From contig JABLXX010000005.1 of NCBI GenBank assembly GCA_013177825.1, forward strand, positions 186,001 through 250,000: a stretch of DNA of 64,000 nucleotides, in the 5' to 3' direction. The stretch comes from Syntrophaceae bacterium (lineage in GTDB: Bacteria; Desulfobacterota; Syntrophia; Syntrophales; PHBD01). This document shows positions 1,841-30,786 of the stretch, piece after piece. The notes under the pieces were generated by a model, which did not search any database, was not told the origin of the DNA, and saw only the letters and a program-made list of their open reading frames with translations. A program made the translations under genes and the position numbers. Position 1 is the stretch's first letter, and every line of letters begins with the position of its first letter.

Positions 1841-1944
1841 ACGCGACTCCGGAACGCGTCCCCTATTCCGACGGATCAGCGTTTTCAGCCGATAAACCCT
1901 CTGATTCTTTCGACATAACAATCATGCGTATGTGCCGGCGATAA

Positions 1945-1960
1945 TGGCACACCTTGTGTA
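1945..1960 (+). promoter_or_regulatory. Possible sigma54 (-24/-12) promoter for the rhodanese gene
   Basis: The sequence tggcacaccttgtgta has a good -24 half (TGGCAC) and a poorer -12 half (TTGTGTA where TTGC is expected), 43 nt before the rhodanese ATG. An inverted repeat TGTGCC/GGCACA overlaps it. It is weaker than the element at 19563-19578 but is the right place for control by the adjacent activator. Confidence 0.4.
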
Positions 1961-2002
1961 TGTCCATTTTTGGGGTATATTGCCCGGGAAAGGAGGAAGA
2001 AC

Positions 2003-2899
2003 ATGAAGCATTCATTTCTTCTGAAAAACCTGCTGCCGGTCCTGCTTTTTCTTGTCCTTTCCGTTCCGGCGGGGGCAAGGGAGATTGCGCCGATCGTCTC
2101 GGTCGACTGGCTTGACGCCAACCTGGACAACCCCCGGCTGATCGTGATCGACGTGCGAAAGGTCGAGCAGTACATGGAAGGCCACATCCCGAACGCCGTC
2201 AGCTCGTTCTACCGTGCCTGGGCCTTCCGGAAGGGGGAACTTTACTCCGAGATCCCGGAAGTGGACGACCTTCAGGAGATGGTCGGCGAGGCCGGAATCG
2301 GCACGGATTCCCTCGTGGTCGTCGCGGGCAGCGTCGCCACGCCCCGGGAAAGCTACCAGAGCGCCCGGGTGGCCTGTACCCTTCAGTACGCCGGGATTCC
2401 GAACGTGGCTCTCCTTGACGGGGGTATCGATGCATGGCTCCGGGGGAAGAAACGGCTCTCCACCTTACTCCGAAAGCCCGCGGCGAAACCCTTCACGGCG
2501 AAGCTCAAGCGGGATTTCATTGCCGACAAGGACTACGTGAAGGCCCGAATGGGAAAGGTCCTCCTCCTGGACGTCCGGGAACCCGAGATTTTCTCCGGCA
2601 AGAAGAAACTCGATTGCATTACCCGGGCCGGCCACATCCCGGGAGCCGTAAACATGCCCACTTCCTGCGCTTTTACCGAGGATGGCACCTTCAAGAGTCC
2701 GGCGATGCTCGCCGCCATTGCGGAGGCGGCCATCGGCAAGGATCTCTCCCGGGAGGTCGTTACCTACTGCGACGTGGGCCAGTGCTGTCCCACCTGGGCC
2801 TTCATCCTGAGAGAGCTCCTTGGTTATCACAGCGTCCGCATCTACGACGGCTCCACTCAGGAGTGGACTGCAGACCCCTCCGCACCGGTCGAGAAGTAA
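2003..2899 (+). CDS. Exported tandem-rhodanese sulfurtransferase
   Basis: Start chosen at 2003, 8 nt after a strong AAAGGAGG; the reading frame is open further upstream but lacks a ribosome site there. The 298-aa product begins with a signal peptide (KHSFLLKNLLPVLLFLVLSVPAGA, cleaved near residue 24) and contains two rhodanese domains. The first (about 30-150) has no cysteine in its active loop and is probably structural. The second (about 175-290) carries the loop CDVGQCC in place of the usual CxxGxR, with two extra cysteines. Rhodaneses move sulfane sulfur from thiosulfate or persulfides to acceptors. The genes that follow (NifX, Mrp, IscU-like) suggest sulfur supply for cluster assembly, but the signal peptide puts this protein outside the cytoplasm, so it could instead handle external thiosulfate. 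Confidence 0.88.
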   Translation: MKHSFLLKNLLPVLLFLVLSVPAGAREIAPIVSVDWLDANLDNPRLIVIDVRKVEQYMEGHIPNAVSSFYRAWAFRKGELYSEIPEVDDLQEMVGEAGIGTDSLVVVAGSVATPRESYQSARVACTLQYAGIPNVALLDGGIDAWLRGKKRLSTLLRKPAAKPFTAKLKRDFIADKDYVKARMGKVLLLDVREPEIFSGKKKLDCITRAGHIPGAVNMPTSCAFTEDGTFKSPAMLAAIAEAAIGKDLSREVVTYCDVGQCCPTWAFILRELLGYHSVRIYDGSTQEWTADPSAPVEK

Positions 2900-2963
2900 A
2901 GGGACGGCCCTTTATGGCAGGATGGCCGGCCGGATACGCCCGGCCGAGAGTCCAGCCTGGTTG

Positions 2964-3004
2964 CATTTATGCATCTCAGCGGGCACCTGACAGGCGCATA
3001 AGTG
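2964..3004. promoter_or_regulatory. Dyad-symmetric sites, possible activator binding region
   Basis: Two short palindromes, TGCATTTATGCA-like near 2963 and CGCATAAGTGCG near 2995, also pair with each other as CATTTATGC/GCATAAGTG (8 of 9). They lie about 95-130 bp upstream of the -24/-12-like element at 3096. This is the normal distance for enhancer sites of a sigma54 activator. No matching copy was recognised elsewhere in the window, so this stays tentative. Confidence 0.3.
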
Positions 3005-3095
3005 CGTCTATTTGGACAACCCCTTGCCTTGCATCCTCCTGCGCCGTCTCTTAAAACCTCATCATTCCATTATGTTATTACCTCATACCGCAATC

Positions 3096-3111
3096 TGGCA
3101 CGCTTTCTGAA
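3096..3111 (+). promoter_or_regulatory. Possible sigma54 (-24/-12) promoter for the NifX-Mrp operon
   Basis: tggcacgctttctgaa has a perfect -24 element (TGGCACG) and CTGAA where TTGCA is expected, at the correct spacing. It is 24 nt upstream of the NifX-like start at 3135 and downstream of dyad sites. Confidence 0.5.
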
Positions 3112-3134
3112 GAGATGCATGCGAGGAAAGTGCC

Positions 3135-3536
3135 ATGAAGATCGCCGTACCGTTCTGGAACGGCCATGTCGCAACCGTCTTCGAGGCGGCCGACGAAATG
3201 GTCGTGATCGAAAACCTGCCCGGGGGGGACCGGGTTCAGCGGATGGAATTCCCGAAAGGCTCTTCTCCTCTTGAGCGGGCGGCTCATCTAAAATCCCTCG
3301 GGATTGACGTCCTGATCTGCGGCGCCCTTTCGAGACCCCTTGCGCACCGGGTCGAGGCGGCGGGCATCCGGCTGATCCCCTTTGTCCGGGGTCCCGTGGA
3401 AGAGGTGGTCAACGCTTTTCGCGAGGAAACACTGGACGGGGAGCGTTATCTTCTACCCGGATGCCGATCCGCATTCAGCAAAAGCGGAGCGCGATGCCGA
3501 CGCCGACGCGGTCGAGCGGAGGCACCGGATTCATGA
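3135..3536 (+). CDS. NifX/NifB-type cluster-binding protein (dinitrogenase FeMo-cofactor family)
   Basis: The 133-aa protein opens with MKIAVPFWNGHVATVFEAAD, typical of the NifX/NafY/ORP fold, which carries metal-sulfur clusters between assembly and target proteins. Family signatures include CGALSRPL (about 56-63) and RLIPFVRGPVEEVV. It is closely related to the first 110 residues of the NifX-zinc-ribbon fusion at 18926-19528 (shared CGA-SR-L, IPFV-G and PGC). Here the C-terminus is a short Arg-rich tail (ARCRRRRGRAEA) rather than a zinc ribbon. GAGGAAAG precedes the ATG. It is the first gene of the set that continues with Mrp ATPase, and the 230-nt gap to that gene leaves room for an internal promoter. 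The cargo cluster is unknown. Confidence 0.85.
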   Translation: MKIAVPFWNGHVATVFEAADEMVVIENLPGGDRVQRMEFPKGSSPLERAAHLKSLGIDVLICGALSRPLAHRVEAAGIRLIPFVRGPVEEVVNAFREETLDGERYLLPGCRSAFSKSGARCRRRRGRAEAPDS

Positions 3537-3768
3537 TTGTCGCCTTTTCACACCTGTTTCGCTCTCGTTGCATCCTTCCTCCTCCGACCTCCCCCGCGCT
3601 ATGGATGGCGGGGGAGGCCCCGCCGGACAGGACCGCAAGCATGCAGAACCGGAATCTTGGTTGACAAAACGGGCAGACAGAGGGAGCAAGGGAACAGGAC
3701 GATCCGGGCGGAAAACGACCGCCGCGGGATTCAGAAAACGATTCAAACCTGAAGGAGGATATGGCGAG

Positions 3769-4629
3769 ATGGAAGATTGCGGGGCAGGCGAAAAGAGGAT
3801 CCCTGAAAAGAGGGAAGCCGATAACAGTGACGAACGGCTGCGGGAGCAGATGAGGCGGATCCGCCACAAGGTCATGGTCCTTTCGGGGAAGGGCGGCGTC
3901 GGGAAGAGCACCGTAGCCGCCAACATCGCCGTGGCCCTGGCCATGGAGGGGAAGATGGTGGGACTTCTGGACGTGGATTTTCACGGACCCAGCATTCCCA
4001 AGCTTCTTAATCTCGAAGGGCCGCCGCCGGTCTCGCAGGGCGCCAAGCTGTCACCGGCCGTCTACGGGGAAAGCCTCAAGGTCATCTCCCTCGGCTTCCT
4101 TCTGCCCGAAAAGGACTCGGCTGTCATCTGGCGCGGCCCGCTGAAAATGGGTGTCATCAAGCAGCTCCTGGCCGACGTTGACTGGGGCGACCTGGATTAC
4201 CTGATCATCGATTTCCCTCCCGGCACCGGGGACGAACCCCTCTCGGTGGCGCAGCTCATTCCGGACAGCAACGGCGCTCTCATCGTCACGACCCCCCAGG
4301 ACCTCTCCCTGTCGGACGTGCGCAAGTCCATCGATTTCTGCCGGAAGGTGAAGTTGCCCGTCCTGGGTGTGATCGAGAACATGAGCGGGTTTGTCTGCCC
4401 GAACTGCAAGACCGTCATCGACATCTTCAAGCGGGGGGGTGGGGAGAGCATGGCGCAATCCATGGGCGTCCCTTTCCTCGGCCGCATCCCCATTGATCCG
4501 CAGATCGTCGAGGCATCCGACAACGGCACGCCCTTCGTGTACCATCACAGCGGCACCGAAGCGGCGGCGGCGTTCCAGCCGATCGTCGGGATGCTTCTCG
4601 ACCTGAAAGAAAAAACGAGGCTCCACTGA
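3769..4629 (+). CDS. mrp: Mrp/NBP35-family P-loop ATPase, Fe-S cluster carrier
   Basis: Start set at 3769, 10 nt after GGAGG; the open frame reaches further upstream without coding character. The 286-aa protein has the deviant Walker A KGGVGKST (about residues 40-47), the switch motif DVDFHGPS, and DFPPGTGDEP. It also has the C-terminal CxxC (CPNC) that in ApbC/NBP35 proteins bridges a [4Fe-4S] cluster at the dimer interface. These ATPases deliver Fe-S clusters to apo-proteins in the cytoplasm. Pairing with NifX-like genes on both sides matches the arrangement in Desulfovibrio ORP loci (established), so a role in loading the NifX-like proteins is likely (inference). The spacing to the next gene is 25 nt. 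Confidence 0.92.
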   Translation: MEDCGAGEKRIPEKREADNSDERLREQMRRIRHKVMVLSGKGGVGKSTVAANIAVALAMEGKMVGLLDVDFHGPSIPKLLNLEGPPPVSQGAKLSPAVYGESLKVISLGFLLPEKDSAVIWRGPLKMGVIKQLLADVDWGDLDYLIIDFPPGTGDEPLSVAQLIPDSNGALIVTTPQDLSLSDVRKSIDFCRKVKLPVLGVIENMSGFVCPNCKTVIDIFKRGGGESMAQSMGVPFLGRIPIDPQIVEASDNGTPFVYHHSGTEAAAAFQPIVGMLLDLKEKTRLH

Positions 4630-4654
4630 AGGAGCGGTACGGAAAGGAGTTTCC

Positions 4655-5005
4655 ATGAAAACAAACGTAACCATCGCCATCCCCGTCAGCGGAGGCAGGC
4701 TCTGCGCCCACTTCGGCCATTGCGACACCTTTGTCCTTCTGGAGGCCGACCGGGACCGCCGAGTCGTTCTCCGCCGCACGGACCTCCAGGCGCCGCCCCA
4801 CGAACCGGGCGTCCTCCCTGCCTGGCTGCAAGAGCAGGGCGCCGACCTGATCATCGCGGGCGGGATGGGGACCCGGGCTCAGAACCTGTTCGCGGCCCGG
4901 GGGATCCAGGTCATCGTGGGCGCTCCGGCGGATGAACCGGAACGGCTCGCAGAGGCCTGGCTGGCGGGAAACCTGGAAATGGGAATCAACACCTGCGACC
5001 ATTGA
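4655..5005 (+). CDS. NifX-like cluster-binding protein
   Basis: This 116-aa protein starts after AAAGGAG and shows the family signature GGRLCAHFGHCDTFVLLEAD, with an AHFGHC motif near residue 20. The middle reads ADLIIAGGMGTRAQNLFAARGIQVIVGA, the typical second half of the dinitrogenase iron-molybdenum cofactor fold. The Cys and His residues around position 15-22 could bind a cluster. It is of the ORP/YjbX-like short type and is distinct from the 3135 protein, which lacks HFGHC. It lies 25 nt after mrp and 22 nt before the IscU-like gene, clearly one operon. It probably acts as a carrier or storage protein for the cluster built on the neighbouring scaffold; the metal is not deducible. Confidence 0.9.
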   Translation: MKTNVTIAIPVSGGRLCAHFGHCDTFVLLEADRDRRVVLRRTDLQAPPHEPGVLPAWLQEQGADLIIAGGMGTRAQNLFAARGIQVIVGAPADEPERLAEAWLAGNLEMGINTCDH

Positions 5006-5027
5006 GGAGGGCCACCGCTTCGAAACG

Positions 5028-5483
5028 ATGATTCCATCCATGCGAGACCGGGGGCCAATCTTCCCGATCGCCGGGCATGTAGGCCACGGGACGGACTTTT
5101 CCGATCGGGTCCTCGATTACGGAACAAACCCCCGAAACTACGGCTCCCTGGACAACCCCGACGGGTATGCAAAATATACGGGGCCCTGCGGAGACACCGT
5201 GGAGATGTTTCTGCTCGCGGCCGACGGACGGGTCACCGGCGCTTCCTTCCGTACGGACGGCTGTACGCCGGCCCTGGCCTCTGCATCGGCCGTCACCGTC
5301 ATGGCGACAGGCAAAACGATCCGGGAATGCGTGAGGATCGATCCGGAGGCCGTCCTGGCACATCTCGGAGGTCTGCCCGACGATTCGCGCCACTGCGCCC
5401 TCCTGGCCGTGAGGACCCTTCGAAGGGCCCTCAGGAACCTGGCGAAAGCCGGGAAACCCGACCGGCAGCCACCTCACCCATGA
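5028..5483 (+). CDS. IscU/NifU-N-like Fe-S cluster scaffold
   Basis: Start placed at 5028; GAGGAGG at 5004 is 17 nt upstream, so the start is slightly uncertain (5040 is an alternative). The product is about 151 aa. The three IscU cysteines and their contexts are present: GPCGD, DGCTPALASAS and SRHCALLA, including the Asp two residues after the first Cys and the His before the third. These coordinate the nascent [2Fe-2S] cluster in IscU/NifU (established). No IscS is encoded nearby; the exported rhodanese is the only visible sulfurtransferase. It sits between a NifX-like gene and a methyltransferase whose ATG overlaps its stop codon (ATGA at 5480), implying coupled translation. It is divergent from housekeeping IscU, so a dedicated scaffold is likely. 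Confidence 0.85.
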   Translation: MIPSMRDRGPIFPIAGHVGHGTDFSDRVLDYGTNPRNYGSLDNPDGYAKYTGPCGDTVEMFLLAADGRVTGASFRTDGCTPALASASAVTVMATGKTIRECVRIDPEAVLAHLGGLPDDSRHCALLAVRTLRRALRNLAKAGKPDRQPPHP

Positions 5484-6508
5484 TGACGAAAGAGGATTTT
5501 TCCGGAACGGTCCGGTCCATCCGGGAACGCCCGCGGGAAGACATCCCCGCCATATGGTGCAACCTGATCCGGTTTCGGGATCTCGTCTTTTTGCAGGGAC
5601 AACTGTGGGTGGAAGAGAATCCGGCGGGCATCTATCGACCCCTTGCGGCCCTCGTCGATCCGCAGGATCCCGTCGAGCCGAAAGGATTCTGGCCTTCCAT
5701 CTCGGCACATCCGGTCAAAGCGTCCGAGGAGACCCGCCTGGTCTCTTTCCTATCCGGCCAGGGCCCGAACGACGTGGAGCTGATCGTTCCGGAAAGGAAC
5801 ACCGCCCGCCTGATGGACTGGAACCGCTTCGACGAGGCCCCGGAATATCCGGTTTATCGAAACCAGATCCACCCGGCCGTCGTCGAGGCCGTGCAAGAGA
5901 TCTGCGACACCATGCCGGCGCGGACAGGAAGTCTCTGCGCCGCTTACCTGTCGGGGTCGGAACGCTCGTCCCTGAAATCCGTGGAGAAGCTGCTCGATGT
6001 CGGGTGCGGCTGCGGAGACCTGATCGAGGCGCTTCTCGGCGGCAATCAGGCCGGTCCGGCGGACTGGAGGCTGTGCGGATGCGGAAACCTCTTCCGGGTC
6101 CCCGACTGCGGCCGGCCGGCGGCTCTCGACTGCCACGGCATCGACGCCAATCCGGACAATGTCGGGGAAGCGCAGCGCAGGCGTCTCGCAAACATCCACT
6201 TCGGCGACGGCGAAGACGTCACCGGATTGCCCGGGGACCTGATGTACGACATCATGATTTTTTGCGGTCTGCTCAATCGCCAGATCCTGTCCCGGGAAAA
6301 GGCGGAAAGGATTCTACGCAAATCCATGACGAGGCTTCGCAGATCGGGACACGTGATCATCACCGGTTATACGTCCTGCCACCTGACGGCGGACGACCTG
6401 TCCCGCATAGGGCTTGCGGTGCTCCGAAAATGCTTCCCCGGCTGCCTGTTCCTGGATTATAACGAGTACCATCTGCGGCAGTTTTACGTTGCCCGAAAGG
6501 ATGCCTGA
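5480..6508 (+). CDS. SAM-dependent methyltransferase with Cys-rich insertion, substrate unknown
   Basis: The start at 5480 overlaps the IscU-like stop (ATGA). The 342-aa protein has a Rossmann methyltransferase core with motif I LLDVGCGCGDLIEALL (about residues 171-186) and the acidic loop DCHGIDANPDN. Between these lies an insertion, LCGCGNLFRVPDCGRP, which adds three cysteines to those already near motif I and could bind a metal. The N-terminal 150 residues match nothing I recognise. The C-terminus (GHVIITGYTSCHL, FLDYNEYHLRQFYVARK) is the usual end of class I enzymes. Methylation of a cofactor or of a partner in the cluster pathway is an attractive but unproven role. The gene is 3 nt from trmO-like 6512. 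Confidence 0.75.
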   Translation: MMTKEDFSGTVRSIRERPREDIPAIWCNLIRFRDLVFLQGQLWVEENPAGIYRPLAALVDPQDPVEPKGFWPSISAHPVKASEETRLVSFLSGQGPNDVELIVPERNTARLMDWNRFDEAPEYPVYRNQIHPAVVEAVQEICDTMPARTGSLCAAYLSGSERSSLKSVEKLLDVGCGCGDLIEALLGGNQAGPADWRLCGCGNLFRVPDCGRPAALDCHGIDANPDNVGEAQRRRLANIHFGDGEDVTGLPGDLMYDIMIFCGLLNRQILSREKAERILRKSMTRLRRSGHVIITGYTSCHLTADDLSRIGLAVLRKCFPGCLFLDYNEYHLRQFYVARKDA

Positions 6509-6511
6509 CCC

Positions 6512-7021
6512 ATGTCAGACCATTTCCTGTTCCGGCCCATCGGCATCATTCATTCGCCCTTTTCCAACCCTGCCGACATGCCCATCCAGCCGACCGGCGC
6601 AAAGGGTGTCCCGGGACGGGCGATCATCGAATCCGCCTACCGGGACGGGCTGAAGGACCTCGAAGGCTTCTCGCACATTCACCTGCTCTATGCCTTTCAT
6701 CTCTCCGAAGGATACGCCCTCCACGTAAAGCCCTTCCTGGATGACCGGCTCCGCGGCGTCTTCGCGACACGGGCCCCCCGGCGACCCAACGCCATCGGCC
6801 TGTCGGTCGTCCGGCTGGTCCGGGTGGAGGGTAATGTTCTGCACATCGAAGATGTGGACGTGATCGACGGAACGCCGCTGTTGGACGTCAAGCCTTACGT
6901 ACCGGCCTTCGACGTCCGGCCTGCGGAGCGGACGGGATGGCTGGCGTCCCGGGCGGAGGGAGCGGCCGACGTGCGGTCGGACCGGCGGTTTGCAGCACCG
7001 GATGAACGGGAGTCCCATTGA
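6512..7021 (+). CDS. TsaA/TrmO-family methyltransferase (tRNA m6t6A37 type)
   Basis: The 169-aa protein begins FLFRPIGIIHSPF and contains FATRAPRRPNAIGLSVVRLVRV and DVKPYVPAFD, the hallmark blocks of the TsaA/VirR/YaeB family. E. coli TrmO of this family N-methylates t6A37 in tRNA-Thr with SAM (established). Many anaerobes have several TsaA homologues in redox or metal loci whose substrates are unknown. The gene follows the SAM methyltransferase by 3 nt and precedes the Hdr-like gene by 46 nt, so it is co-transcribed with cluster genes and may have a role other than tRNA modification. The length is close to the short form of the family, lacking the C-terminal extension of E. coli TrmO. Confidence 0.82.
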   Translation: MSDHFLFRPIGIIHSPFSNPADMPIQPTGAKGVPGRAIIESAYRDGLKDLEGFSHIHLLYAFHLSEGYALHVKPFLDDRLRGVFATRAPRRPNAIGLSVVRLVRVEGNVLHIEDVDVIDGTPLLDVKPYVPAFDVRPAERTGWLASRAEGAADVRSDRRFAAPDERESH

Positions 7022-7067
7022 CAGCAACACACTGAAATGTCATGAAATAAACCGAGAGGAGGGAATC

Positions 7068-8093
7068 ATGTTTCACGAAGACCGATGCGATTTCTGCGGA
7101 GACTGCCTGGCACGGTGTCATTACCTGCCCTTCGACAAAGAGACGGGGGCGGCGGCGTTCCGCAAGTTCGTGGAAGAGGGGCAGGCCGACTGGCTCTACG
7201 ACTGCGTCACCTGCATCGCCTGCAACGAGTACTGTCCGAGAGACGCACGCCCCTTCGACCTGATCCTGCAGAAAATGGAGGAGGCGGGGAACTTTACCGA
7301 CCCCGCCCTCAAGGCCCAGATGGCCGACCGCTTCAAGGCGGAAGGAACTCCCAAGGCCGTCGCTCCGGCCGAACGGGTCATGTCCCTGTGCGTCATGGAG
7401 GGCAGCATGCCCTGGGCCCTCCACGGAAGGCTGTTCGAGGGTCTTCCGCTCCTGAAGGGTCGCCATTACTTCTGCAACGTCCTCTTCGCCCACATGGGGG
7501 ACGAGTCGATCATGCGGGACCGCCTCCAGGGCCTCGTCGACAACCTGGCCCTGTCGGGAGCGAAGGAGATCGTCTTCGTCCATGACGACTGCTATGCCGT
7601 CCTGAAAGGCATGGCACCCGAGTTCGGCGTCACCCTTCCCTTCCGCCCCGTGTCCATCTTCGAGTACCTGCGGGACTACCTGAATGAGCACAAGTCCGAC
7701 ATCAGGCCCCTGAACATGAAGATCGCCTACCAGCGGCCCTGCGCCTCCCGGTACACCCCGGAGAAGGACCCCTTCCTGGACGAGATTCTCGACCTGATCG
7801 GCGTGGAGCGGGTCAAACGGGAGTACGACGGTGTCAACGCCATCTGCTGCGGCGTCGAGCTGGCGGGGCCGAACCTGAAGCTCTTTCCCCGGGGGAAGAA
7901 CTTCGAGCCCTTCCGGGAGAAGAACATCGCCGACGCGAAGGAGCACGGCGCCGAGGCCATGCTGTATCTATGTCCCATGTGCTACAGGACCCTGAGCAAA
8001 AAGGCCAAGGGCGCGGGCCTCGCCAACTACATGATCAGCGACCTGTGCCGGCTCGCCCTGGGCGAAACCCTGCCGGAGGACAAGCCCGCCTGA
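7068..8093 (+). CDS. Heterodisulfide reductase-like Fe-S protein (ferredoxin plus CCG domain)
   Basis: Start set at 7068 after GAGAGGAGGG; upstream codons are non-coding in character. The 341-aa protein has two [4Fe-4S] motifs near the N-terminus (CDFCGDCLARC and CVTCIACNEYC). A C-terminal cysteine-rich CCG domain reads PC-x34-CCG-x40-CPMC, the ligand set that in HdrB holds a noncubane [4Fe-4S] centre (established for HdrB). The architecture resembles HdrD/GlcF/GlpC, except that only the second CCG repeat is complete; an HDDCY remnant marks the first. It should be a cytoplasmic electron-transfer or disulfide/thiol reductase module. No HdrA or dehydrogenase is adjacent. Downstream is the selenoprotein peroxiredoxin, which would be a reasonable electron acceptor (inference). 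Confidence 0.85.
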   Translation: MFHEDRCDFCGDCLARCHYLPFDKETGAAAFRKFVEEGQADWLYDCVTCIACNEYCPRDARPFDLILQKMEEAGNFTDPALKAQMADRFKAEGTPKAVAPAERVMSLCVMEGSMPWALHGRLFEGLPLLKGRHYFCNVLFAHMGDESIMRDRLQGLVDNLALSGAKEIVFVHDDCYAVLKGMAPEFGVTLPFRPVSIFEYLRDYLNEHKSDIRPLNMKIAYQRPCASRYTPEKDPFLDEILDLIGVERVKREYDGVNAICCGVELAGPNLKLFPRGKNFEPFREKNIADAKEHGAEAMLYLCPMCYRTLSKKAKGAGLANYMISDLCRLALGETLPEDKPA

Positions 8094-8184
8094 GACGGGC
8101 CTTGCTGCGGCCGGTCACCCTTTACAGTGAATCCCCGAAGAGGGATGTGGATATAAACCGCATGATTCCGGAAAGGAGGTTCCC

Positions 8185-8910
8185 ATGGCGAAAGAGATGA
8201 AAGTGGGCTGTGCCCGGCCCACGGGGGGCCCCGTGGGCGAGGCCGTGATCGAGGCAACCGGAGGAGAAACCGCGCAACCGCAGCAGAAGGAGGTGAGGCA
8301 GATGGTGACGGTCGGCAAAAAGGCCCCGGATTTTACGGCGCCGGCGTATCAAAAGGGCAAGTTCATCGAGGTGAAACTGTCGGAGTACCTCGGAAAGTGG
8401 GTCGTCCTCTGCTTCTACCCGGGTGATTTCACGTTCGTATGAGCCACGGAGATCTCGGCGGTCGCCGAGAAATACCCCGAATTCAAAAAGCTGGGCGTGG
8501 AGATCCTGTCCATGAGCGTCGACAGCGTCTTCGTCCACAAGATGTGGAATGACCATGAGCTCTCCAAGATGGTCAAGGGCGGCGTCCCCTTCCCCATGCT
8601 CTCCGACGGCGGCGGCAAGGTGGGGAGCGTATACGGCGTCTATCTGGAGGACGCGGGGGTGGAGGCCCGGGGCCGGTTCATCATCGACCCCGACGGGATC
8701 ATTCAGGGCTTCGAGGTCCTGACGCCGCCGGTGGGCCGGAACGTCCTCGAGTCCATCCGCCAGATCCAGGCGTTCCAGGTCGTCCGGAAATCGAAGGGGA
8801 CCGAGGCAACGCCCTCGGGCTGGAAACCCGGCAAGATGACCCTGAAGCCGGGGCCAGACCTGGTCGGAAGGGTCTGGGAAGTCTGGAAAACGAAGATGGC
8901 CTTCGACTGA
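8185..8910 (+). CDS. Selenocysteine-containing peroxiredoxin (UGA read as Sec at residue 86)
   Basis: An ideal AAAGGAGG precedes the ATG. The frame contains one in-frame TGA at 8440-8442 and is otherwise open to 8910 (241 aa). The TGA falls exactly at the peroxidatic position of the Prx motif: [15 protein letters not shown], where AhpC/Prx1 proteins have FYPxDFTFVCPTE. Downstream sequence is intact Prx ([23 protein letters not shown]). A hairpin with a GGUC loop, 17 nt after the TGA, fits a bacterial SECIS. The usual resolving Cys motif VCP before xxWKPG is replaced by EATPSG. The only cysteines are Cys9, in an unusual N-terminal extension ([11 protein letters not shown]), and Cys76. It should reduce peroxides; the reductant is unknown, and the neighbouring Hdr-like protein or Cys9 are candidates. 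Confidence 0.93.
8440..8470 (+). promoter_or_regulatory. UGA selenocysteine codon with bacterial SECIS-like hairpin
   Basis: The TGA at 8440-8442 is followed by a perfect 7-bp stem (8453-8459 with 8464-8470) closed by the tetraloop GGTC at 8460-8463. Seventeen nucleotides separate the TGA from the loop. In E. coli fdhF the SelB-bound element also has a GGUC-containing apical loop about this far from the UGA (established). The conserved G-U of the loop is present. Confidence 0.85.
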
Positions 8911-8935
8911 GGCCTCCCGAAACGATCGGCACCGG

Positions 8936-8965
8936 TTCTCCCCGGTCCGGCCGGTCCGGGGAGAA
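8936..8965 (+). terminator. Hairpin after the peroxiredoxin gene
   Basis: A 10-bp perfect stem (8936-8945 with 8956-8965) encloses a 10-nt GC-rich segment that can pair further. There is no T run, so it may be an attenuator or mRNA-stabilising hairpin rather than a full terminator. The rest of 8911-9156 shows no gene. Confidence 0.45.
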
Positions 8966-9156
8966 CGCCATCCGGTCCTTTGCCACGAACGGAACCGGCA
9001 CCCGATCATCCGGACCGGCCGGCCGGAGACGCGGAGGCGGTTTCTCCGGGCCGACCCGTCACCGGAGCTGCAGAAACGATTTCATGAGGGCAACGGGATG
9101 GAGGAATTCCATCCATCCCTGCGAATCCAATAAGAAGCAGAAAGGAGATGTACCTG

Positions 9157-10113
9157 ATGCAGTCCGTCCCCATCAACGAAGTGGACCGGGTGGAAATCCT
9201 CACCCTCCAGGACAACTACATTGAAATCACCGCCATGGACAACAGCGCAGTGGTGAACCGCGCCACGGCCCTCAAGGACATGGAGTTCAAGAGCTCCATC
9301 CTGGCGGAGCATGGTTTCTCCGCCGTGGTAAAGACCACGACGGGAGACCGGACCCGGACGCTCCTGTTCGACTTCGGCTTCTCCGAAATCGGCGCGGCCC
9401 ACAACGCCCGCGTCCTGGGGGTCGACCTGTCCCAGGTGGAGGCCATCGCCCTCTCCCACGGGCACTCGGACCACACGGGGGGGTTCATCGACATGATGGC
9501 CATGATCGGGAAGAAGGGACTCGAACTGACGGTCCACCCGTCTGTCTTCAAGAAGCCCCGCTACCTGAAGATCGCACCGGAATTCAAGATTCACTTCCCG
9601 AAATTCGACCGTGAAACCGTCGAGAAGGCGGGGCTGAAGGTCGTGGAGTCGAAGGAACCGCGGCCCCTGTTGGACGGGGACGTGCTGTTCCTCGGGGAGG
9701 TCCCCCGGCGGACGGATTTCGAGAAGGGGTTCCCCATCGCCTTCTGCCAGGAGGGGGGCGAGGAGAAGTGGGACGCCATCGAGGACGACACTTCCGTCGT
9801 CATGAACCTGAAGGGCAAAGGTCTGGTGATCCTCTCCGGCTGCGCCCATTCGGGGATCGTCAACACGGCCCTCTATGCCCGGGAGGTGACGGGCGTGGAG
9901 CAGGTCCATGTCGTCATGGGGGGATTCCACCTGAGCGGCCCCCTCTTCGAATCCATCATCGGCCGGACCACGGAAGAGCTGAAGAAGATCAACCCCGCCT
10001 ACGTCATCCCCACCCACTGCACGGGCCGGAAGGCCATCATGGAGATGGAAAAGGAGATGAAGGATGCCTTCATCCTGAACATGTCGGGAACGAAGCTCAC
10101 CTTCGCGGCGTGA
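9157..10113 (+). CDS. MBL-fold metallohydrolase, COG1237 type
   Basis: Start set at 9157, nine nt after GGAG; the ATG at 9148 abuts the ribosome site. The 318-aa protein has the metallo-beta-lactamase zinc motif SHGHSDHTGG, a later SGCAHSGIVN and MGGFHL, and a PTHCTG end. This set defines the group annotated as dihydropterin-type phosphate synthases (COG1237), seen in methanogens and many anaerobes. A second, more divergent member lies at 13990-14829 in the opposite gene set. Members sit in loci for NifX/MinD-type proteins, but the reaction is not established there. It lies 246 bp after the peroxiredoxin and may have its own promoter. Confidence 0.85.
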   Translation: MQSVPINEVDRVEILTLQDNYIEITAMDNSAVVNRATALKDMEFKSSILAEHGFSAVVKTTTGDRTRTLLFDFGFSEIGAAHNARVLGVDLSQVEAIALSHGHSDHTGGFIDMMAMIGKKGLELTVHPSVFKKPRYLKIAPEFKIHFPKFDRETVEKAGLKVVESKEPRPLLDGDVLFLGEVPRRTDFEKGFPIAFCQEGGEEKWDAIEDDTSVVMNLKGKGLVILSGCAHSGIVNTALYAREVTGVEQVHVVMGGFHLSGPLFESIIGRTTEELKKINPAYVIPTHCTGRKAIMEMEKEMKDAFILNMSGTKLTFAA

Positions 10114-10383
10114 CGGAAGGACGTCTCTCTCAAGGAAGAAAGCCACGAGATGCGGCCCGGCGGATTGCTCCGCCGGGCCGCCGGGCGACAGATGAAGCCG
10201 CAGGGACGTCATGTCCTTCCCGGCTGAGCAGCAGGAGAAGCGGACCGGAGTACACGACCGTCCTGGCAGCGGTGGTCTTCGTGGCCTGACTTTCAGCAAC
10301 GAGGGATGCAGAGGAACAGGGCTTGTCGTATCGTCCGCGGAGTTTCCGGCGTCCCAACCTCCAATATCGGCGGCTGGAGAGCC

Positions 10384-10788
10384 ATGGCAGGGCGGCCTCA
10401 CGACACGGATTGCGAGGTCGCCAGAGCATACGCCGAAAGAACCTACAAACGGCTTACCGGCGAGGACCCGGCTGTCACGGGAGCATATGAAAGGACCGAC
10501 CACACGGAAGAGACCCTGGACGCCATCGAGGCCTTCCGGTTCAAGGTCCTGACGCAGCTGCCCGGACGAGGCGGAAACGATTGCAGCATGTGCATGGTCT
10601 GCGAGGAAGGGTGCCCCTCGGGAGCCATGAATGTCGAAGTCGGCGAGGCGGACCGGGGGAAGTGCATTGCCTGTCTGGGTTGCGTCCGGAACTGCCCGGA
10701 AAACGCCCTGAAGATAAACGACATGTCCCCGGGGTGGGCGGGGAAGCGTGGCCCGGTTCGGGTTCGACCTGAACCGCGCCCTGGGTGA
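10384..10788 (+). CDS. Two-[4Fe-4S] ferredoxin-type protein, possibly a truncated relic
   Basis: Two ferredoxin motifs are clear: CSMCMVCEEGCP and CIACLGCVRNCP. The start at 10384 (GGAG 5 nt upstream) gives 134 aa; 10306 is an alternative. The ~65 residues before the first cluster (CEVARAYAERTYKRLTGEDP...) could be the end of a larger flavodoxin- or dehydrogenase-type domain, and the last ~20 residues are Arg/Pro-rich with no family character. Either it is a small stand-alone ferredoxin with sloppy ends or the remains of a longer EFR1-like flavodoxin/ferredoxin. It is the last gene of the plus-strand set, followed by a strong terminator. It probably supplies electrons to cluster enzymes. Confidence 0.65.
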   Translation: MAGRPHDTDCEVARAYAERTYKRLTGEDPAVTGAYERTDHTEETLDAIEAFRFKVLTQLPGRGGNDCSMCMVCEEGCPSGAMNVEVGEADRGKCIACLGCVRNCPENALKINDMSPGWAGKRGPVRVRPEPRPG

Positions 10789-10911: not shown

Positions 10912-12993
10912 TCACTCCTTCCGGCTGATCCGGCAGGGCAGGCTCTTGAGGTTCGGCGTGCCGTATTCCTTCCCCAGCTTCACAACGGAAGTGAGCATGT
11001 TGAAATTGGCCGACTTCCAGTCGTACTGGGCAGCCGGGTCCGCCTCGGGGAACCACCAGCCGTGGGCGGCACAGACCACCCCCGGCATCAGGGCGTCCGT
11101 CAGGCGGGCCGACTGTTCCACCCGCCCGTACTTCGTCTCGATGACCACCGGATCGCCGTCGGCCAGGCCATAGAGGGCCGCCGTCTCCGGGTGGATCTCC
11201 ACGAGGGGCCGGGGCTCCCTCTTCCGTATCTTTTCCACCCACCGGTAGGAGGAGTGAAGGTAATTCCCGCTCTTGGCGCTTGTCAGGACCAGGGGATAAT
11301 CGGAATCGTCCTCTTCCGGCAGGCCCTTCCACTCCGGCAGGGCCGACAGGCGGAATTTCTCCGCCACGCTCAACTTCAGCTCCACCTTCCCCGTGGGGGT
11401 CCTGAAGCCCTTTTCCTTCCAGGAGCCGAAGCGGTCCGCACCCTTCAGGCAGCCCTTCTCCACAAACTGGGCATAGGTCAGTCCGGCGGGCTTCACCACG
11501 TCCTCCAGAAACTGCTCGAAGTCGTCATGCCAGAGCGAGGGATCGCTTACCCGCCTGCCCAACTCGTTCATGATTTTCATGTCGGGCCAGCACTCATCCG
11601 GCGGCTCCACGATCTTCGGCCGCGCCAGGATATAGCCATGGCCGATTCCGTAGTGCCCGATGTCGTTGATCTCGAAGGTGGTGGCCGCCGGCAGGACCAC
11701 GTCCGCCATGGCCGCCGTGGGCGTCATGAAGACATCCGCCACGGCGACGAAATCAAGCTTTCGGAAGGCCTCATGGGTGAGGCGGCTGTCGGCGTAGGAC
11801 AGCATGGGGTTGGAGCACATGCCGTAGAATCCCTTCACAGGGTAGGGAACTCCCTCCAGGACGGCCTTCCGGAAGTAGGCGGGGGCGATGGTCATGAGCC
11901 GCGGGATCACCCGGTGGTGGGCGCTGATCATTTCCTTGCGCTTGTCCGGGATGAGGTCCGCCCGAACGAAGGGGCCGAGGCCCATGATCCGGGGGTCATG
12001 GGCCTCCACGTTGCCGCCGGGGACATCCAGGTTTCCCGTGACGGCCATGAGGCAGATGAGAGCCCGGGTGGCGTCGAAGGTGTGGACCGTGTGCTCCAGC
12101 GGGTTCCCCCACTGGAGCACCGCCGGCTTGGCGGCGGCGTAGGACCGGGCGGCCTCGCGGATGAGTCCCGCCTCGACGCGGGTTATGGCGGAGACTGCCT
12201 CGGGGGTGTATTTTTTCACGTGCTCGGCCAGATCGGCGAATCCCTCTGTCCACTGCTCCACGAATGCCTTGTCGTAGAGGCACTCTCCAATGATGACGTT
12301 CAGGAACCCCAGGGCCAGGGCCGGGTCCGTCCCGGGCCGGATCGGGAGCCAGAACTTTGCCTTCTTCGCCAGATCGATGCGGCGAGGGTCGATGACGATC
12401 AGCTCCGTACCCTCCTTGACCTGATCCAGAAGCAGTTTGCAGATCTCCCCCTCCTCGTTCGTGGACGTGATGTTGCTGCCCCAGAGGACCGCCAGGGCGC
12501 TTTTGTGATGAAAATCAGCCACGGGATAGAAGCCGCAGGTGTGGAGCCCTGTGATCTCCCGGGGGGCGTGGCAGACATCCTGGGAAGCGATGACGTTGGG
12601 GGATCCGAAGAGGTTGGCGAGGCGGATCAGGACGAAGTGCTCCAGTCCCTTGGGCATACCGACTCCGAATGCGACTGCCTTGGGACCATGCTCATCCCGG
12701 ATCTTCCGGAGGCCACCGGCAACCGTCTCCAGGGCCTCATCCCAGGAGATGCGCTCCCACCTTCCCTCTCCTCGGTCTCCCTTTCGTTTCAAAGGATACC
12801 TCAGCCGGTCCGGGTGGGTCAGCCGGTCCGGCGAGGCCACCCCCTTGGGGCAGATGTATCCCCGGCTCAAAAAGCCCTCCGGGTCCCCCTTGACCTGGAC
12901 GATCCGGTTATTCTTCACGCCCACGAGCAGCGCACAGCCGCCGTGGTCCATCCTCGAGCAGTGGGTCTTCACCCAGCGGACACCCTCCTCCAT
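10912..12993 (-). CDS. Molybdopterin-bisPGD oxidoreductase (DMSO reductase superfamily), copy 1
   Basis: Start placed at 12993 after AAGGAGGAGTC. The product is 693 aa with no Tat or Sec signal, so it is cytoplasmic. The N-terminal Fe-S site reads C12-x3-D16-x3-C20-x27-C48: the second ligand of the family's C-x3-C-x3-C pattern is Asp. The expected Mo ligand is Cys141 in QDVCHAPRE, aligned by context with the Cys/Sec of nitrate reductases and formate dehydrogenases. The MPT-binding C-terminus (VVIETKYGRVEQ, HGWWFPEAD) is complete. The paralogue at 21366-23447 has the same length and motifs. There is no adjacent electron-transfer subunit, though ferredoxin genes are near. The substrate is unknown; a role linked to the metal-sulfur genes is inference. 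Confidence 0.88.
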   Translation of the reverse strand: MEEGVRWVKTHCSRMDHGGCALLVGVKNNRIVQVKGDPEGFLSRGYICPKGVASPDRLTHPDRLRYPLKRKGDRGEGRWERISWDEALETVAGGLRKIRDEHGPKAVAFGVGMPKGLEHFVLIRLANLFGSPNVIASQDVCHAPREITGLHTCGFYPVADFHHKSALAVLWGSNITSTNEEGEICKLLLDQVKEGTELIVIDPRRIDLAKKAKFWLPIRPGTDPALALGFLNVIIGECLYDKAFVEQWTEGFADLAEHVKKYTPEAVSAITRVEAGLIREAARSYAAAKPAVLQWGNPLEHTVHTFDATRALICLMAVTGNLDVPGGNVEAHDPRIMGLGPFVRADLIPDKRKEMISAHHRVIPRLMTIAPAYFRKAVLEGVPYPVKGFYGMCSNPMLSYADSRLTHEAFRKLDFVAVADVFMTPTAAMADVVLPAATTFEINDIGHYGIGHGYILARPKIVEPPDECWPDMKIMNELGRRVSDPSLWHDDFEQFLEDVVKPAGLTYAQFVEKGCLKGADRFGSWKEKGFRTPTGKVELKLSVAEKFRLSALPEWKGLPEEDDSDYPLVLTSAKSGNYLHSSYRWVEKIRKREPRPLVEIHPETAALYGLADGDPVVIETKYGRVEQSARLTDALMPGVVCAAHGWWFPEADPAAQYDWKSANFNMLTSVVKLGKEYGTPNLKSLPCRISRKE

Positions 12994-17978: not shown

Positions 17979-18075
17979 TCCGCCTCCCCCCATGTCTTCC
18001 CGACAGGGAATTCATGGCAAGAACTCCCACCGACCCTTGGCTGGAACCCTGAACGGCCTTCGCCGGAGCCGCTTC

Positions 18076-19704: not shown

Positions 19705-21102
19705 TCAATGCTTCTCTATTCCGGTACCGCTGGAGCGGCCGTCCTGTTTCGGAAGGGAAATCCCGAGTCTTTTCAGTTTCCGGAAAAGAGTGGTCTTGTG
19801 GATGCCGAGTTCCCGAGCCGCCGCCAGGCGATTGTATCCGTTCCTTTCCAGTGCCGCTTTGATGGATTGAATGTCGAGCAGATCATGGGCGGAACGAACA
19901 TCCGCATCGGCGTCCGTCGCAATCGCGCGGGACGTCAATTCGTCGGGGAGGTGGGCGATGCAGATGGATCCCTCCCGGCAGAGTATGAAGGCCCGCTCGA
20001 TCACGTTTTCGAGCTCCCGCACGTTACCCGGCCAGTCGTGGGCCATGAGCAGGGCGACGGCCTCGGCGGTGATTCCCGGGATGGACTTGCCCTGCAGCCG
20101 GTTGAACCGCTGGACGAACTGCTCCGCCAGAAGCGGGATGTCTTCCTTGCGCCGGCGGAGAGGCGGCAATTCGACCCGCACCACGTTTACGCGGTAGTAG
20201 AGGTCCTCCCGGAAGGCGCCCGCACGCATCCGCTCCGCAAGGTCCCGGTTGGTGGCGACAATCACCCGCGCGTCCGCCTTCTCGGTGCGCGTCCCCCCCA
20301 ACGGTTCATAGGTCCGCTCCTGCAGGACCCGGAGGAGGCGGATCTGCAGGGCCGGGCTGATCTCCCCGATCTCGTCGAGAAAGATGCTTCCGCCCCTCGC
20401 CAGTGCGAAACGGCCGGGCTTGTCCTTGCCCGCTCCCGTGAAGGCGCCGGCCTTGTAACCGAAGAGTTCGGACTCGAGAAGCGTGTCCGGCAGAGCACCG
20501 CAGTTCACGGCAATGAAGGGCCCTTCGCGCCGGGGACTCAGATCGTGGATGGTCCGCGCGATCAGTTCCTTGCCCGTTCCCGTATCCCCAAGCACAAGGA
20601 CCGTACTCGGGCTGGCCGCGATGGCCGGCAGGACCTCGAAGACCCTCTGCATCAGGGGGCTCCGGCTCACGAGGTCGCCCACCCGCACCCGGCCCGCCAG
20701 TTCCTGGCGCAGGGCCTCCACCTCGGAGAGGTCCCGGAAGGTCTCGGCGCCCCCGATCACGCGGCCGTCGGCTTCCTTGAGCACCGCCGTGGAGACGCTG
20801 ATGGGGATACGGTTCCCCGCCGCGTCGATGATGTACCCGGATTTTCCGATGACGGGCCTGCCGGTTTTCAGCGTCTTCTGGAGGGCGCAGCCGGCACCGC
20901 ACATGCTGGACCGGAACACCTCCGAGCAGGGACGGCCGACTGCCTCCCGGCGGGGCACTCCGGTGATCTCCTCGGCGGCGCGGTTGAAGGAGGAAATGCG
21001 CCACTCCATGTCCACGGTGAAGACACCGTCGGAGATGCTCTCCAGGATGGCCTCGGTGGGCGTCGTGATCGTTGCCTGTCCACTGGTTTTCCGACGGCCC
21101 AT
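19705..21102 (-). CDS. Sigma54-dependent transcriptional activator with PAS sensor
   Basis: The 465-aa protein has a PAS domain (about 15-125), an AAA+ domain with GDTGTGKE (about 172), canonical GAFTGA (219-224) and DEIGE, and a C-terminal Fis helix-turn-helix (AARELGIHKTTLFRKLKRLGI). It is a clear paralogue of the 467-1840 regulator. The PAS domain repeats the C-x8-C-x3-C pattern (Cys59, Cys68, Cys72). GAGGAGG lies 8-14 nt upstream of the ATG. It is placed just upstream of the NifX-zinc-ribbon gene and its -24/-12 promoter, and downstream of oxidoreductase 2. This follows the sigma54-controlled ORP arrangement in Desulfovibrio (established analogy). Confidence 0.94.
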   Translation of the reverse strand: MGRRKTSGQATITTPTEAILESISDGVFTVDMEWRISSFNRAAEEITGVPRREAVGRPCSEVFRSSMCGAGCALQKTLKTGRPVIGKSGYIIDAAGNRIPISVSTAVLKEADGRVIGGAETFRDLSEVEALRQELAGRVRVGDLVSRSPLMQRVFEVLPAIAASPSTVLVLGDTGTGKELIARTIHDLSPRREGPFIAVNCGALPDTLLESELFGYKAGAFTGAGKDKPGRFALARGGSIFLDEIGEISPALQIRLLRVLQERTYEPLGGTRTEKADARVIVATNRDLAERMRAGAFREDLYYRVNVVRVELPPLRRRKEDIPLLAEQFVQRFNRLQGKSIPGITAEAVALLMAHDWPGNVRELENVIERAFILCREGSICIAHLPDELTSRAIATDADADVRSAHDLLDIQSIKAALERNGYNRLAAARELGIHKTTLFRKLKRLGISLPKQDGRSSGTGIEKH

Positions 21103-21365: not shown

Positions 21366-23447
21366 CTAAGCCTTTCGGCGGATCCGGCACGGCAGATTCT
21401 TCAGATTCGGCGTACCGAACTCCTTTCCCAGCTTCCCGGCGGAGGTCAGCATGTTGAAGTTGGCCGACTGCCATTCGTACTGGCCCGCCGGGTCTCCCTC
21501 AGGGAACCACCAACCCAGGGAGGCGCTGACAACGAGGGGATGGACGATGTCGGTGACACGGGCCTTCTGGGTGATGGTGCCGTACTTCGTCTCGATGACG
21601 ACGTCGTCGCCGTCCCGGATGTCCAACCGGGCCGCCGTGTCGGGATGGATCTCCACCGTCGGATGGGGGCGCTTCTCCCGAAGCCGCTTGACCCACCGGT
21701 AGGACGAGAGGAGATAGTACCGGCTCTTGGCGCTGATGAGGAGCAGGGGGTACTCCGGATCGTCCTCCTCCGGGAAACCGGTGAACTCCGGCAGCGGCTT
21801 GAGGCCGAACTTTTCCGCCGTGCTGAGGCGCAGCTCCACCTTGCCCGTCGGCGTCGGGAACCCCTTCGCTTCGTAGGAGCGGGCAATCTCCGGACCCTTG
21901 AGGTAGCCTTTCCCGACAAACTCCGGGTAGGTCAATCCCGCCGGGCGGACGAGGTCCTCGAGGAACTGCTCGTGATCCTCGGGCCACAGGTCCGGGGGCG
22001 ACACGCGCTTGCCCAGCTCGTTCATGATCTTCATGTCGGGCCAGCACTCCTCCGGCGGCTCGACGATCTTGGGGCGGGCGAAGATCATGCCGTGGCCGAT
22101 GCCGTAGTGGCCGATGTCGTTCATCTCGTACTGGTGTGCCACAGGAAGGACGATGTCCGCCATGGCGGCCGTGGGCGTCATGAAGATCTCCGCGACGGCC
22201 ATGAAGTCGAGGCTCCGGAAGGCCTCGTGGGTCAGGCGGCTGTCCGCCCAGTTGACCATCGGATTCGTGCACATGCCGTAGTATCCCCGGACAGGGTATG
22301 GAACCCCCTCCAGGACGGCCTTCCGGAAGAAGGCAGGGGCAATGGTCATGAGACGGGGGATCACCCGGTGGTGGGCGCTGATCATGTCCTTGCGCTTGTC
22401 CGGGATGAGGTCCGCCCGAACGAACTGAGCCAGCCCCATGACTTTCGGATCCCGGGCATGAACGTTGCCGCCGGGAACCTCCAGGTTGCCGCAGAGGGCC
22501 ATCAGGCAGGCGAGCGACCGGACGGCGTCGAAGGCGTGGACGTCGTGCTCGATGGGGTTCCCCCACTGGAGCGCCGCCGGTTTCGCCTCGGCGTACATCC
22601 GGGCGGCCTGGCGGATCCTGTCGGCGGGAACCCAGGTAACCGCCGCCATCTTTTCGGGGGAATAGGTCTTCAGGTGCTCGCGGAGATCCTCGAACCCGTG
22701 GGTGTACTTCTCCACGAACTCCCGGTCGTAGAGGGATTCCTCGCAGATCACGTGCATGATCGAAAGCGCCAGGGCCTGGGCCGTACCCGGACGGAGCTGC
22801 AGCCAGAGGTCCGCCCGATCGGCCAGCTCGGTCCGCCGGGGATCCACGACAATCATCCGGGCGCCTTTTTTCAACTGGTCATGGAGGAGGCTGACGATCT
22901 GCCCCTCCTCGTTGGTGGCCGTCAAGTTGCTGGCCCAGAGGAAAAGGAGCCTGGACGGATTGTGCAGATCCGCCACGGGATAGAAGCCGCAGGTATGGAC
23001 CCCCGTGACCTCCCGCGGGGCGTGGCACACGTCCTGGGAGGCGATCACGTTGGGGGATCCGAAGATATTGGCCAGGCGGATCAGGACAAAGTGCTCCAGT
23101 CCTTTGGGCATGCCGACGCCGAATCCGACGGCCCGGGCGCCGTGTTTCTCCTTGATCTTGAGAAGATTCTCCGCCGTCTCCTCCAGGGCCTGGTCCCAGG
23201 AGATGCGCTGCCAGCGTCCTTCCCCCCGTTCTCCGACCCGTTTCAGGGGATGCCGGAGACGGTCCGGGTGCGTGAGGCGGTCCGCCGACACCCGTCCCTT
23301 GAAGCAGGTGTAGCCGTGGTTCAGGTACCCCTCGGGGTCCCCCTTGATCTGGACGATCTCGTTTCCCTTCACACCCACGAGCAGCGCGCAGCCGCCGTGA
23401 TCCATCCTCGCACAATGGGTCTTCACCCAGCGGACGCCTTCCTCCAT
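21366..23447 (-). CDS. Molybdopterin-bisPGD oxidoreductase (DMSO reductase superfamily), copy 2
   Basis: Start set at 23447 (MEEGVRWVKTHCARMDHGGC) after GGGAGGGG; the open frame extends 29 codons further upstream without coding character. The 693-aa product equals copy 1 (10912-12993) in length and aligns without gaps in every block compared. It has the same C12-x3-D16-x3-C20-x27-C48 site and Cys141 in QDVCHAPRE. No signal peptide is present. Differences are scattered substitutions, e.g. CFKG for CPKG at the fourth ligand and YYLLSSYRW for NYLHSSYRW. Two copies bracket the NifX/MinD gene set. They may have different substrates or form a heterodimer; neither is shown. Confidence 0.88.
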   Translation of the reverse strand: MEEGVRWVKTHCARMDHGGCALLVGVKGNEIVQIKGDPEGYLNHGYTCFKGRVSADRLTHPDRLRHPLKRVGERGEGRWQRISWDQALEETAENLLKIKEKHGARAVGFGVGMPKGLEHFVLIRLANIFGSPNVIASQDVCHAPREVTGVHTCGFYPVADLHNPSRLLFLWASNLTATNEEGQIVSLLHDQLKKGARMIVVDPRRTELADRADLWLQLRPGTAQALALSIMHVICEESLYDREFVEKYTHGFEDLREHLKTYSPEKMAAVTWVPADRIRQAARMYAEAKPAALQWGNPIEHDVHAFDAVRSLACLMALCGNLEVPGGNVHARDPKVMGLAQFVRADLIPDKRKDMISAHHRVIPRLMTIAPAFFRKAVLEGVPYPVRGYYGMCTNPMVNWADSRLTHEAFRSLDFMAVAEIFMTPTAAMADIVLPVAHQYEMNDIGHYGIGHGMIFARPKIVEPPEECWPDMKIMNELGKRVSPPDLWPEDHEQFLEDLVRPAGLTYPEFVGKGYLKGPEIARSYEAKGFPTPTGKVELRLSTAEKFGLKPLPEFTGFPEEDDPEYPLLLISAKSRYYLLSSYRWVKRLREKRPHPTVEIHPDTAARLDIRDGDDVVIETKYGTITQKARVTDIVHPLVVSASLGWWFPEGDPAGQYEWQSANFNMLTSAGKLGKEFGTPNLKNLPCRIRRKA

Positions 23448-30737: not shown

Positions 30738-30786
30738 TCCGCCTCCATGCGGCGGGTTCCCAATACGGCTGACTGGGCAGAGCACC

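Follow-up and report, generated by a model that had tools for sequence, protein, structure and literature searches.

A partnerless acetylene-hydratase-like clade of predicted bis-MGD proteins with aspartate in the N-terminal Fe–S motif

Introduction

Among Mo/W enzymes, acetylene hydratase of Syntrophotalea (Pelobacter) acetylenica has been described as the single non-redox example known, its relatives being called uncharacterised (PMC12096430). It is a single-subunit protein (structure 2E7Z) in which the Fe–S motif is Cys9-x2-Cys12-x3-Cys16 with Cys46, the metal ligand is Cys141 and Asp13 is catalytic (PMC12096430). Uncharacterised acetylene-hydratase-like lineages and other Cys-coordinating lineages have already been noted (PMC10100899, PMC12096430). 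Among the described relatives, the metallopterin-dependent ergothioneine synthase has an acetylene-hydratase-like bis-MGD module with a Cys ligand, four Cys in its N-terminal motif and a fused cysteine desulfurase, giving a chain of about 1136 aa (PMC9516567). The catechol dehydroxylases of Gordonibacter and Eggerthella are acetylene-hydratase-related and include small cytoplasmic forms, but are encoded with a 4Fe-4S partner and, in Eggerthella, a TAT/membrane anchor (PMC7028382). In another branch of the superfamily, the structurally solved [4Fe-4S] centre FS0 of anammox nitrite oxidoreductase is ligated by Cys67, Asp71, Cys75 and Cys115 (PMC8387239).

Here we analyse a 64,000-nucleotide stretch of DNA from a Syntrophaceae bacterium, referred to throughout as the window, which encodes two proteins with an Asp in this motif. 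From their sequences, they appear to belong to a separate subfamily among the acetylene-hydratase-like proteins of the DMSO reductase superfamily, whose members are stand-alone and cytoplasmic, with predicted bis-MGD binding. We found no description of the Asp motif in acetylene-hydratase-like proteins in the openly licensed literature; within that literature, the apparently undescribed part is the partnerless Asp-motif clade, Asp ligation of FS0 being already known from nitrite oxidoreductase.

Results

Both genes lie on the minus strand, copy A at 10912..12993 and copy B at 21366..23447, and each encodes 693 aa from an ATG start, with a Shine–Dalgarno-like purine-rich stretch (GGAGGA, GGGAGG) shortly 5' of the gene. 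A first-pass annotation, silent on strand, had reported these two open reading frames and, in both, the motif C12-x3-D16-x3-C20-x27-C48 together with Cys141, all of which we confirm. In copy B the codons for C12 to C20 occupy 23388..23414 (Asp16 at 23400-23402), with Cys48, the fourth Fe–S position, at 23304..23306 and Cys141, the presumed Mo/W ligand, at 23025..23027; the corresponding minus-strand positions in copy A are 12934..12960 (Asp16 at 12946-12948), 12850..12852 and 12571..12573. The Asp16 codons of the two copies are GAC and GAT, from which any Cys codon is two base changes away, so that the motif Asp is no sequencing slip. Comparison with the orthologues of a sister species (HGW-Deltaproteobacteria-19, locus L009; L and G numbers are our own handles for loci and genomes) gave dN/dS values of 0.14 (copy A) and 0.10 (copy B), and both are therefore maintained proteins under purifying selection. 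The source genome (4.24 Mb in 25 contigs) encodes MoeA; it contains no close copies beyond these two, and the scores of its remaining bis-MGD proteins are far lower. An Fe–S motif that begins at residue 12 leaves no space for an export signal, and neither copy has a partner-subunit gene beside it in the same operon, as the annotation had also stated.

The Molybdop_Fe4S4, Molybdopterin and Molydop_binding domains (PF04879, PF00384, PF01568) all score above cut-off in these proteins, which places them in the DMSO reductase (MopB) superfamily. By contrast, the scores for named families fall well under the curated cut-offs: 318 bits against 666 for TIGR01591 (FdhA), 307-310 bits against 694 for NF012032 (thiosulfate reductase PhsA), and likewise for others. 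Among solved structures, acetylene hydratase is the best match by sequence, at about 29% identity. An AlphaFold model built from 117 sequences has a mean pLDDT of 95.2, and Foldseek and VIA-align both put 2E7Z first (Z 44.1, rmsd 1.9, 680 of 693 residues; runner-up Z 37.9). Nitrite oxidoreductase and transhydroxylase are not near the top of this structural ranking, which was not used as a test. The chain ends after the Molydop_binding domain, with no C-terminal cysteine desulfurase such as that of ergothioneine synthase. The catechol dehydroxylases were set beside the clade by description and not by sequence.

The resemblance to acetylene hydratase extends over the whole length of the fold and includes the single-subunit state, three of the four Fe–S cysteines, Lys48 (Lys50 in the Asp clade) and the metal ligand, Cys141 aligning with its Cys141 in 76/76 dereplicated homologues. 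The Fe–S motif itself differs, Cys12 being replaced by Asp16 and one extra residue being present in the loop. In all 76 sequences the catalytic Asp13 is replaced by His17 (PMC12096430). Further replacements, each again in 76/76, are Ile142 by His142, Trp179 by Glu180 and Arg606 by Lys574, and Glu146, Glu181, Asp444 and His447 are additional clade-specific invariants of this set. As far as alignment can tell, the acetylene hydratase fold has been kept and the pocket rebuilt. Escherichia coli FdhF (formate dehydrogenase H) shares the fold, and its Lys44, Sec140 and His141 match Lys50, Cys141 and His142; it differs in having four Cys. Arg333 of FdhF, which is needed for formate chemistry, is Asp or Glu in 70/76 of the Asp-clade sequences.

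Homologues were drawn from GTDB contigs, 60 relatives and about 300 genomes of the phylum. The motif C-x3-D-[HQ]-G-G-C-x27-C was found in 108 distinct proteins, with the Asp invariant, and in the dereplicated set Asp16, the three motif cysteines and Cys141 are present in every one of the 76. Outside the Asp clade, the position equivalent to Asp16 is Cys in 49/51 rows, with a gap at position 13, and relatives at about 40% identity and below carry C-x2-C-x3-C. In the nearest four-Cys clade the sequence is CRMCHGGC, in the Asp clade CARMDHGGC; the change therefore amounts to one Cys-to-Asp replacement plus one inserted residue. The phylogeny that the first-pass annotation had proposed as a check was run here, by maximum likelihood on 74 sequences. 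In this tree all Asp proteins fall together (support 100/95) in a group that is uniformly Asp and includes both window copies; the group is recovered again after removal of the N-terminal 75 residues. On this sequence evidence the Asp arose once, inside a large acetylene-hydratase-like group. Among the 108 Asp-clade homologues no replacement invariant Cys occurs close to the motif in sequence; the other invariant or near-invariant cysteines are C153, C468 and C687. An apparent Cys member within the clade, fragment L065, proved to be an artefact of a missing N-terminus. Of 294 genomes sampled in the phylum, 47 have the Asp clade, almost always as one copy and as two in some Syntrophales; it also occurs in Syntrophomonas-type Bacillota (mostly MAGs). 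The family is widespread among syntrophic and sulfate-reducing bacteria.

From the equal lengths and paired positions of the two genes, the first-pass annotation had suggested a recent duplication with division of labour. The copies are indeed 71% identical, on the same strand and close together. In the tree, however, copy B falls in a subclade with Syntrophaceae and Syntrophomonadaceae sequences while copy A groups elsewhere, and forcing the window copies together (with the sister-species copy A) costs 192 log-likelihood units, with an AU p value of 3.2e-5. Each copy, its own sister-species orthologue excepted, is nearest to sequences from other genera, and two Asp copies occur on separate contigs in several genomes (e.g. 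G005, G038, G043, G053 and G058). By these sequence comparisons the copies are members of different old subclades common to other genera, and the duplication is old; the equal length of 693 aa accordingly reflects family-wide length conservation and not recency. Nor is the division of labour borne out, as position 165 is the only one that consistently separates the B subclade from the others. We therefore reject the recent duplication, which retains hardly any credibility.

The four-Cys sister clade (L118, L131-L158), a large and uncharacterised group from Desulfobacterota, provides a comparison for the lack of a partner. It shares about 40% identity and the same domains with the Asp clade, is cytoplasmic, and has likewise a His at the Asp13 position and a Cys metal ligand. 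It differs in its C-x2-C-x3-C motif, in having Tyr or Phe for His142 and in usually having a ferredoxin subunit encoded directly downstream, by a gene that overlaps or lies just beyond. Among loci flanked on both sides by 900 bp or more, a same-strand downstream ferredoxin-motif ORF was found at 22/27 loci of the CRMCHGGC sister clade as opposed to 1/96 Asp-clade loci (Fisher p 1.5e-18); because the loci are related, this contrast represents one clade-level evolutionary event and not 123 independent ones. At that level the difference is clear: an electron-transfer subunit usually accompanies the genes for the four-Cys relatives, whereas those for the Asp proteins lack one. Absence of a partner does not by itself require the Asp, since all four Cys are retained in acetylene hydratase, which has no partner either; a soluble partner may also be encoded elsewhere.

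Eight genes of an ORP/NifX-MinD-like cluster sit between copies A and B, all on the minus strand. They encode a GYD protein (13440-13730), a metallo-beta-lactamase fold protein (13990-14829), a MinD-ferredoxin ATPase (14900-15772), a radical SAM protein (15916-16878), another MinD-ferredoxin ATPase (17130-17993), two Nitro_FeMo-Co (NifX-type) proteins (18076-18438 and 18926-19528) and a PAS-containing σ54 activator (19705..21102). The other arm of the cluster, on the plus strand (467..10788), encodes a σ54 activator, a rhodanese, an MrpORP-like ATPase, a NifX-type protein, a methyltransferase, TrmO, an HdrD-like Fe–S protein, a peroxiredoxin, a metallo-beta-lactamase protein and a small ferredoxin. 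In Desulfovibrio, MrpORP passes Fe–S clusters to ORP proteins (PMC6345978); the ATPase encoded here (3769-4629) scores 396.5 bits with NF041136 (MrpORP), below the cut-off of 450, and only the P-loop part is there. The peroxiredoxin gene (8293-8910, plus strand) has an in-frame TGA (8440-8442) at the peroxidatic Cys position (FTFV-U-ATE) and is open when TGA is read as U, so that it probably encodes a selenoprotein.

No neighbour gene is universal across Asp-clade loci; instead, three settings recur. One is a Mo island, in which formate dehydrogenase and the Asp-clade gene, sometimes with moeA directly downstream, are followed by fmdE-modCBA; parts of it are seen in L010-L014, L019, L022, L031, L044, L046, L049, L052 and L060. 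The presence of moeA, modABC, fmdE and formate dehydrogenase beside the gene in relatives fits a metal-loaded enzyme. On another contig of the source genome the FDH-modABC-fmdE island is also present, but no Asp-clade gene lies in it. This island (G000:C16:1-20000, L206), of the kind that carries the Asp enzyme in relatives, contains two formate dehydrogenase genes adjoining modABC and fmdE, each with a stop after about 190 codons that is probably read as Sec. A further setting is the ORP-like operon (NifX-type, MinD-ferredoxin, MrpORP-like, TrmO, HdrD-like and rhodanese genes), found in the window, L009, L035 and L059 and partially in L016, L045 and L071; the bracketing of a cluster by the two copies, to which the first-pass annotation had drawn attention, is this setting. 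At L059, a NifU_N-like fragment (PF01592; 9727-9978) overlaps the start region of the Asp-clade gene. In deep lineages DUF169 (PF02596) and/or DUF6125 (PF19620) genes stand next to the gene (L017, L018, L074, L171, L194, L195; also L036). No particular substrate is indicated by gene context. We considered σ54 control of the Asp-clade gene and discarded it, as sites occur in 7/103 upstream regions against 4.2 expected. No Rfam elements, Moco riboswitches included, were detected around the two window genes.

Discussion

The annotation had described a bis-MGD enzyme with Asp at the second-Cys position and a Cys ligand to Mo or W, a description supported, as a prediction from sequence, by the Pfam domains and the alignment. 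By analogy with nitrite oxidoreductase, Asp16 is likely to ligate a [4Fe-4S] cluster. That enzyme, the nearest precedent, has an Asp-ligated [4Fe-4S] centre; the destabilisation of such centres by Asp, which the annotation had raised from other proteins, is hypothetical here. The NXR-A subunit (7B04) shares C-x3-D-x3-C and the distal Cys, this spacing being reached in the Asp clade by the inserted residue. It differs in belonging to another branch of the superfamily, in having an Asp Mo ligand where Cys141 stands here, and in being a 1148-aa component of a multi-subunit enzyme with haem and Fe–S partners; only a short stretch of it was aligned in a sequence search of solved structures. Given the different branch and metal ligand, the two motifs are convergent. 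The alternative is that Asp16 is not a cluster ligand, the three Cys holding a [3Fe-4S] cluster or no cluster being bound, and that it acts in acid/base chemistry like Asp13 of acetylene hydratase, a catalytic residue of the same loop (PMC12096430). Although a one-residue insertion could re-register the loop in this way, the RM[C/D]HGGC alignment sets Asp16 on acetylene hydratase Cys12 and His17 on Asp13, and ligands with the identical spacing have been proven to hold the [4Fe-4S] cluster of nitrite oxidoreductase (PMC8387239). We regard a non-ligand role for Asp16 as rather unlikely.

The explanation that we consider best, with a probability of about 0.5, is a partnerless cytoplasmic bis-MGD subfamily in which an Asp-altered cluster accompanies non-respiratory chemistry on a polar substrate. 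Cys141 would bind Mo- or W-bis-MGD, and Cys12, Cys20 and Cys48 together with Asp16 would hold an N-terminal FS0-type cluster, presumably the Asp-ligated [4Fe-4S] form. The single-origin Asp clade, unlike its four-Cys sister, has no electron-transfer subunit in the operon; the cluster has therefore probably lost the function of a wire between the metal and a dedicated partner. Its task may now be to set or stabilise the oxidation state of the metal during a non-respiratory reaction with a closed cycle, such as hydration/dehydration or hydroxyl or sulfur transfer; alternatively, it may accept occasional electrons from a diffusible donor. The polar pocket (His17, His142, Glu146, Glu180/181 and Lys574) suggests that the substrate is polar or anionic and not acetylene. 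The cluster ligation, the identity of the metal (Mo or W) and the non-respiratory chemistry are all predictions from sequence and analogy, to be set apart from the observed sequence, fold class, single origin, old duplication, absent partner and conserved pocket residues.

One point against a non-redox reading is that His142 matches formate dehydrogenase, a redox enzyme. The main rival to our explanation is an oxidoreductase of a small polar substrate, whose tuned, Asp-ligated cluster would exchange electrons with a soluble ferredoxin or a local Fe–S protein; in the window the candidates would be the 134-aa ferredoxin (10384-10788) and the HdrD-like protein (7068-8093). The superfamily is mostly redox and includes, in nitrite oxidoreductase, a redox enzyme that shares the FS0 motif (PMC8387239). 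An HdrD-like gene recurs nearby in L016, L045, L059, L071 and the window, in L071 as the same-strand gene immediately upstream. The 134-aa ferredoxin, however, is on the opposite strand and beyond the window was found in the sister species only, and the lack of a conserved partner and of the formate dehydrogenase Arg333 also tells against this rival, which we judge somewhat unlikely while still giving it serious weight. The residues shared with FdhF, and the formate dehydrogenase operons that flank the gene in L010-L014, L022, L044, L049, L052 and L060, could be taken to indicate a formate dehydrogenase-like or CO2-reducing enzyme, or a formate dehydrogenase accessory. The operon association is largely confined to the B subclade, though, and the Asp or Glu at the Arg333 position, the low FdhA score and the better structural match with acetylene hydratase make such a function very improbable.

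Better placed, if still improbable, is sulfur transfer in the manner of ergothioneine synthase, an acetylene-hydratase-like bis-MGD enzyme that forms a C–S bond (PMC9516567), with sulfur supplied by rhodanese or persulfide carriers. A rhodanese gene lies just upstream in L035 and is also present in the window, the upstream region of L059 holds a CoA-disulfide-reductase-like gene with a rhodanese domain as well as the NifU-like fragment, and similar reductases are found near L055, L062, L063 and L194. Against this, the Asp-clade proteins have no fused desulfurase and ergothioneine synthase has C-x2-C-x3-C; moreover, most loci lack sulfur-related neighbours, and those present could belong functionally to the Fe–S cluster operon instead.

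Returning to the partnerless, non-respiratory enzyme that we favour, we suggest tentatively, and as an unlikely rather than an expected outcome, that the Asp clade may constitute an unrecognised enzyme class of anaerobes: a bis-MGD protein cut off from electron transfer, with a polar acid-base pocket and a non-redox or sulfur-transfer reaction in Mo, Fe–S or thiol metabolism. The Moco/Mod/FDH and ORP-NifX-rhodanese settings, which recur around the gene, hint at a role in such metabolism. The clade offers a natural contrast between sister groups, which either have or lack the fourth Cys and either have or lack a ferredoxin partner; this allows one to test if the N-terminal cluster serves as a wire, as a structural element or as a potential-setter. 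The gene is moreover conserved, and sometimes duplicated, in relatives of Syntrophus and Syntrophomonas, which are important in methanogenic degradation.

Some other members of the wider group depart from the common architecture. Three acetylene-hydratase-like proteins of 1160-1240 aa (L177:3245-6964, L178:1550-5029 and L179:4061-7771) have an extra Cys-rich N-terminal region. Two related proteins (L125:2269-4620 and L126:6237-8531) begin with what looks like an export signal, of twin-arginine-like type in L125, and have lost the N-terminal Fe–S motif entirely. Elsewhere in the window (29331-31350, plus strand), two MORN-like repeat proteins were recognised by eye, one of them following a Glu/Pro-rich region.
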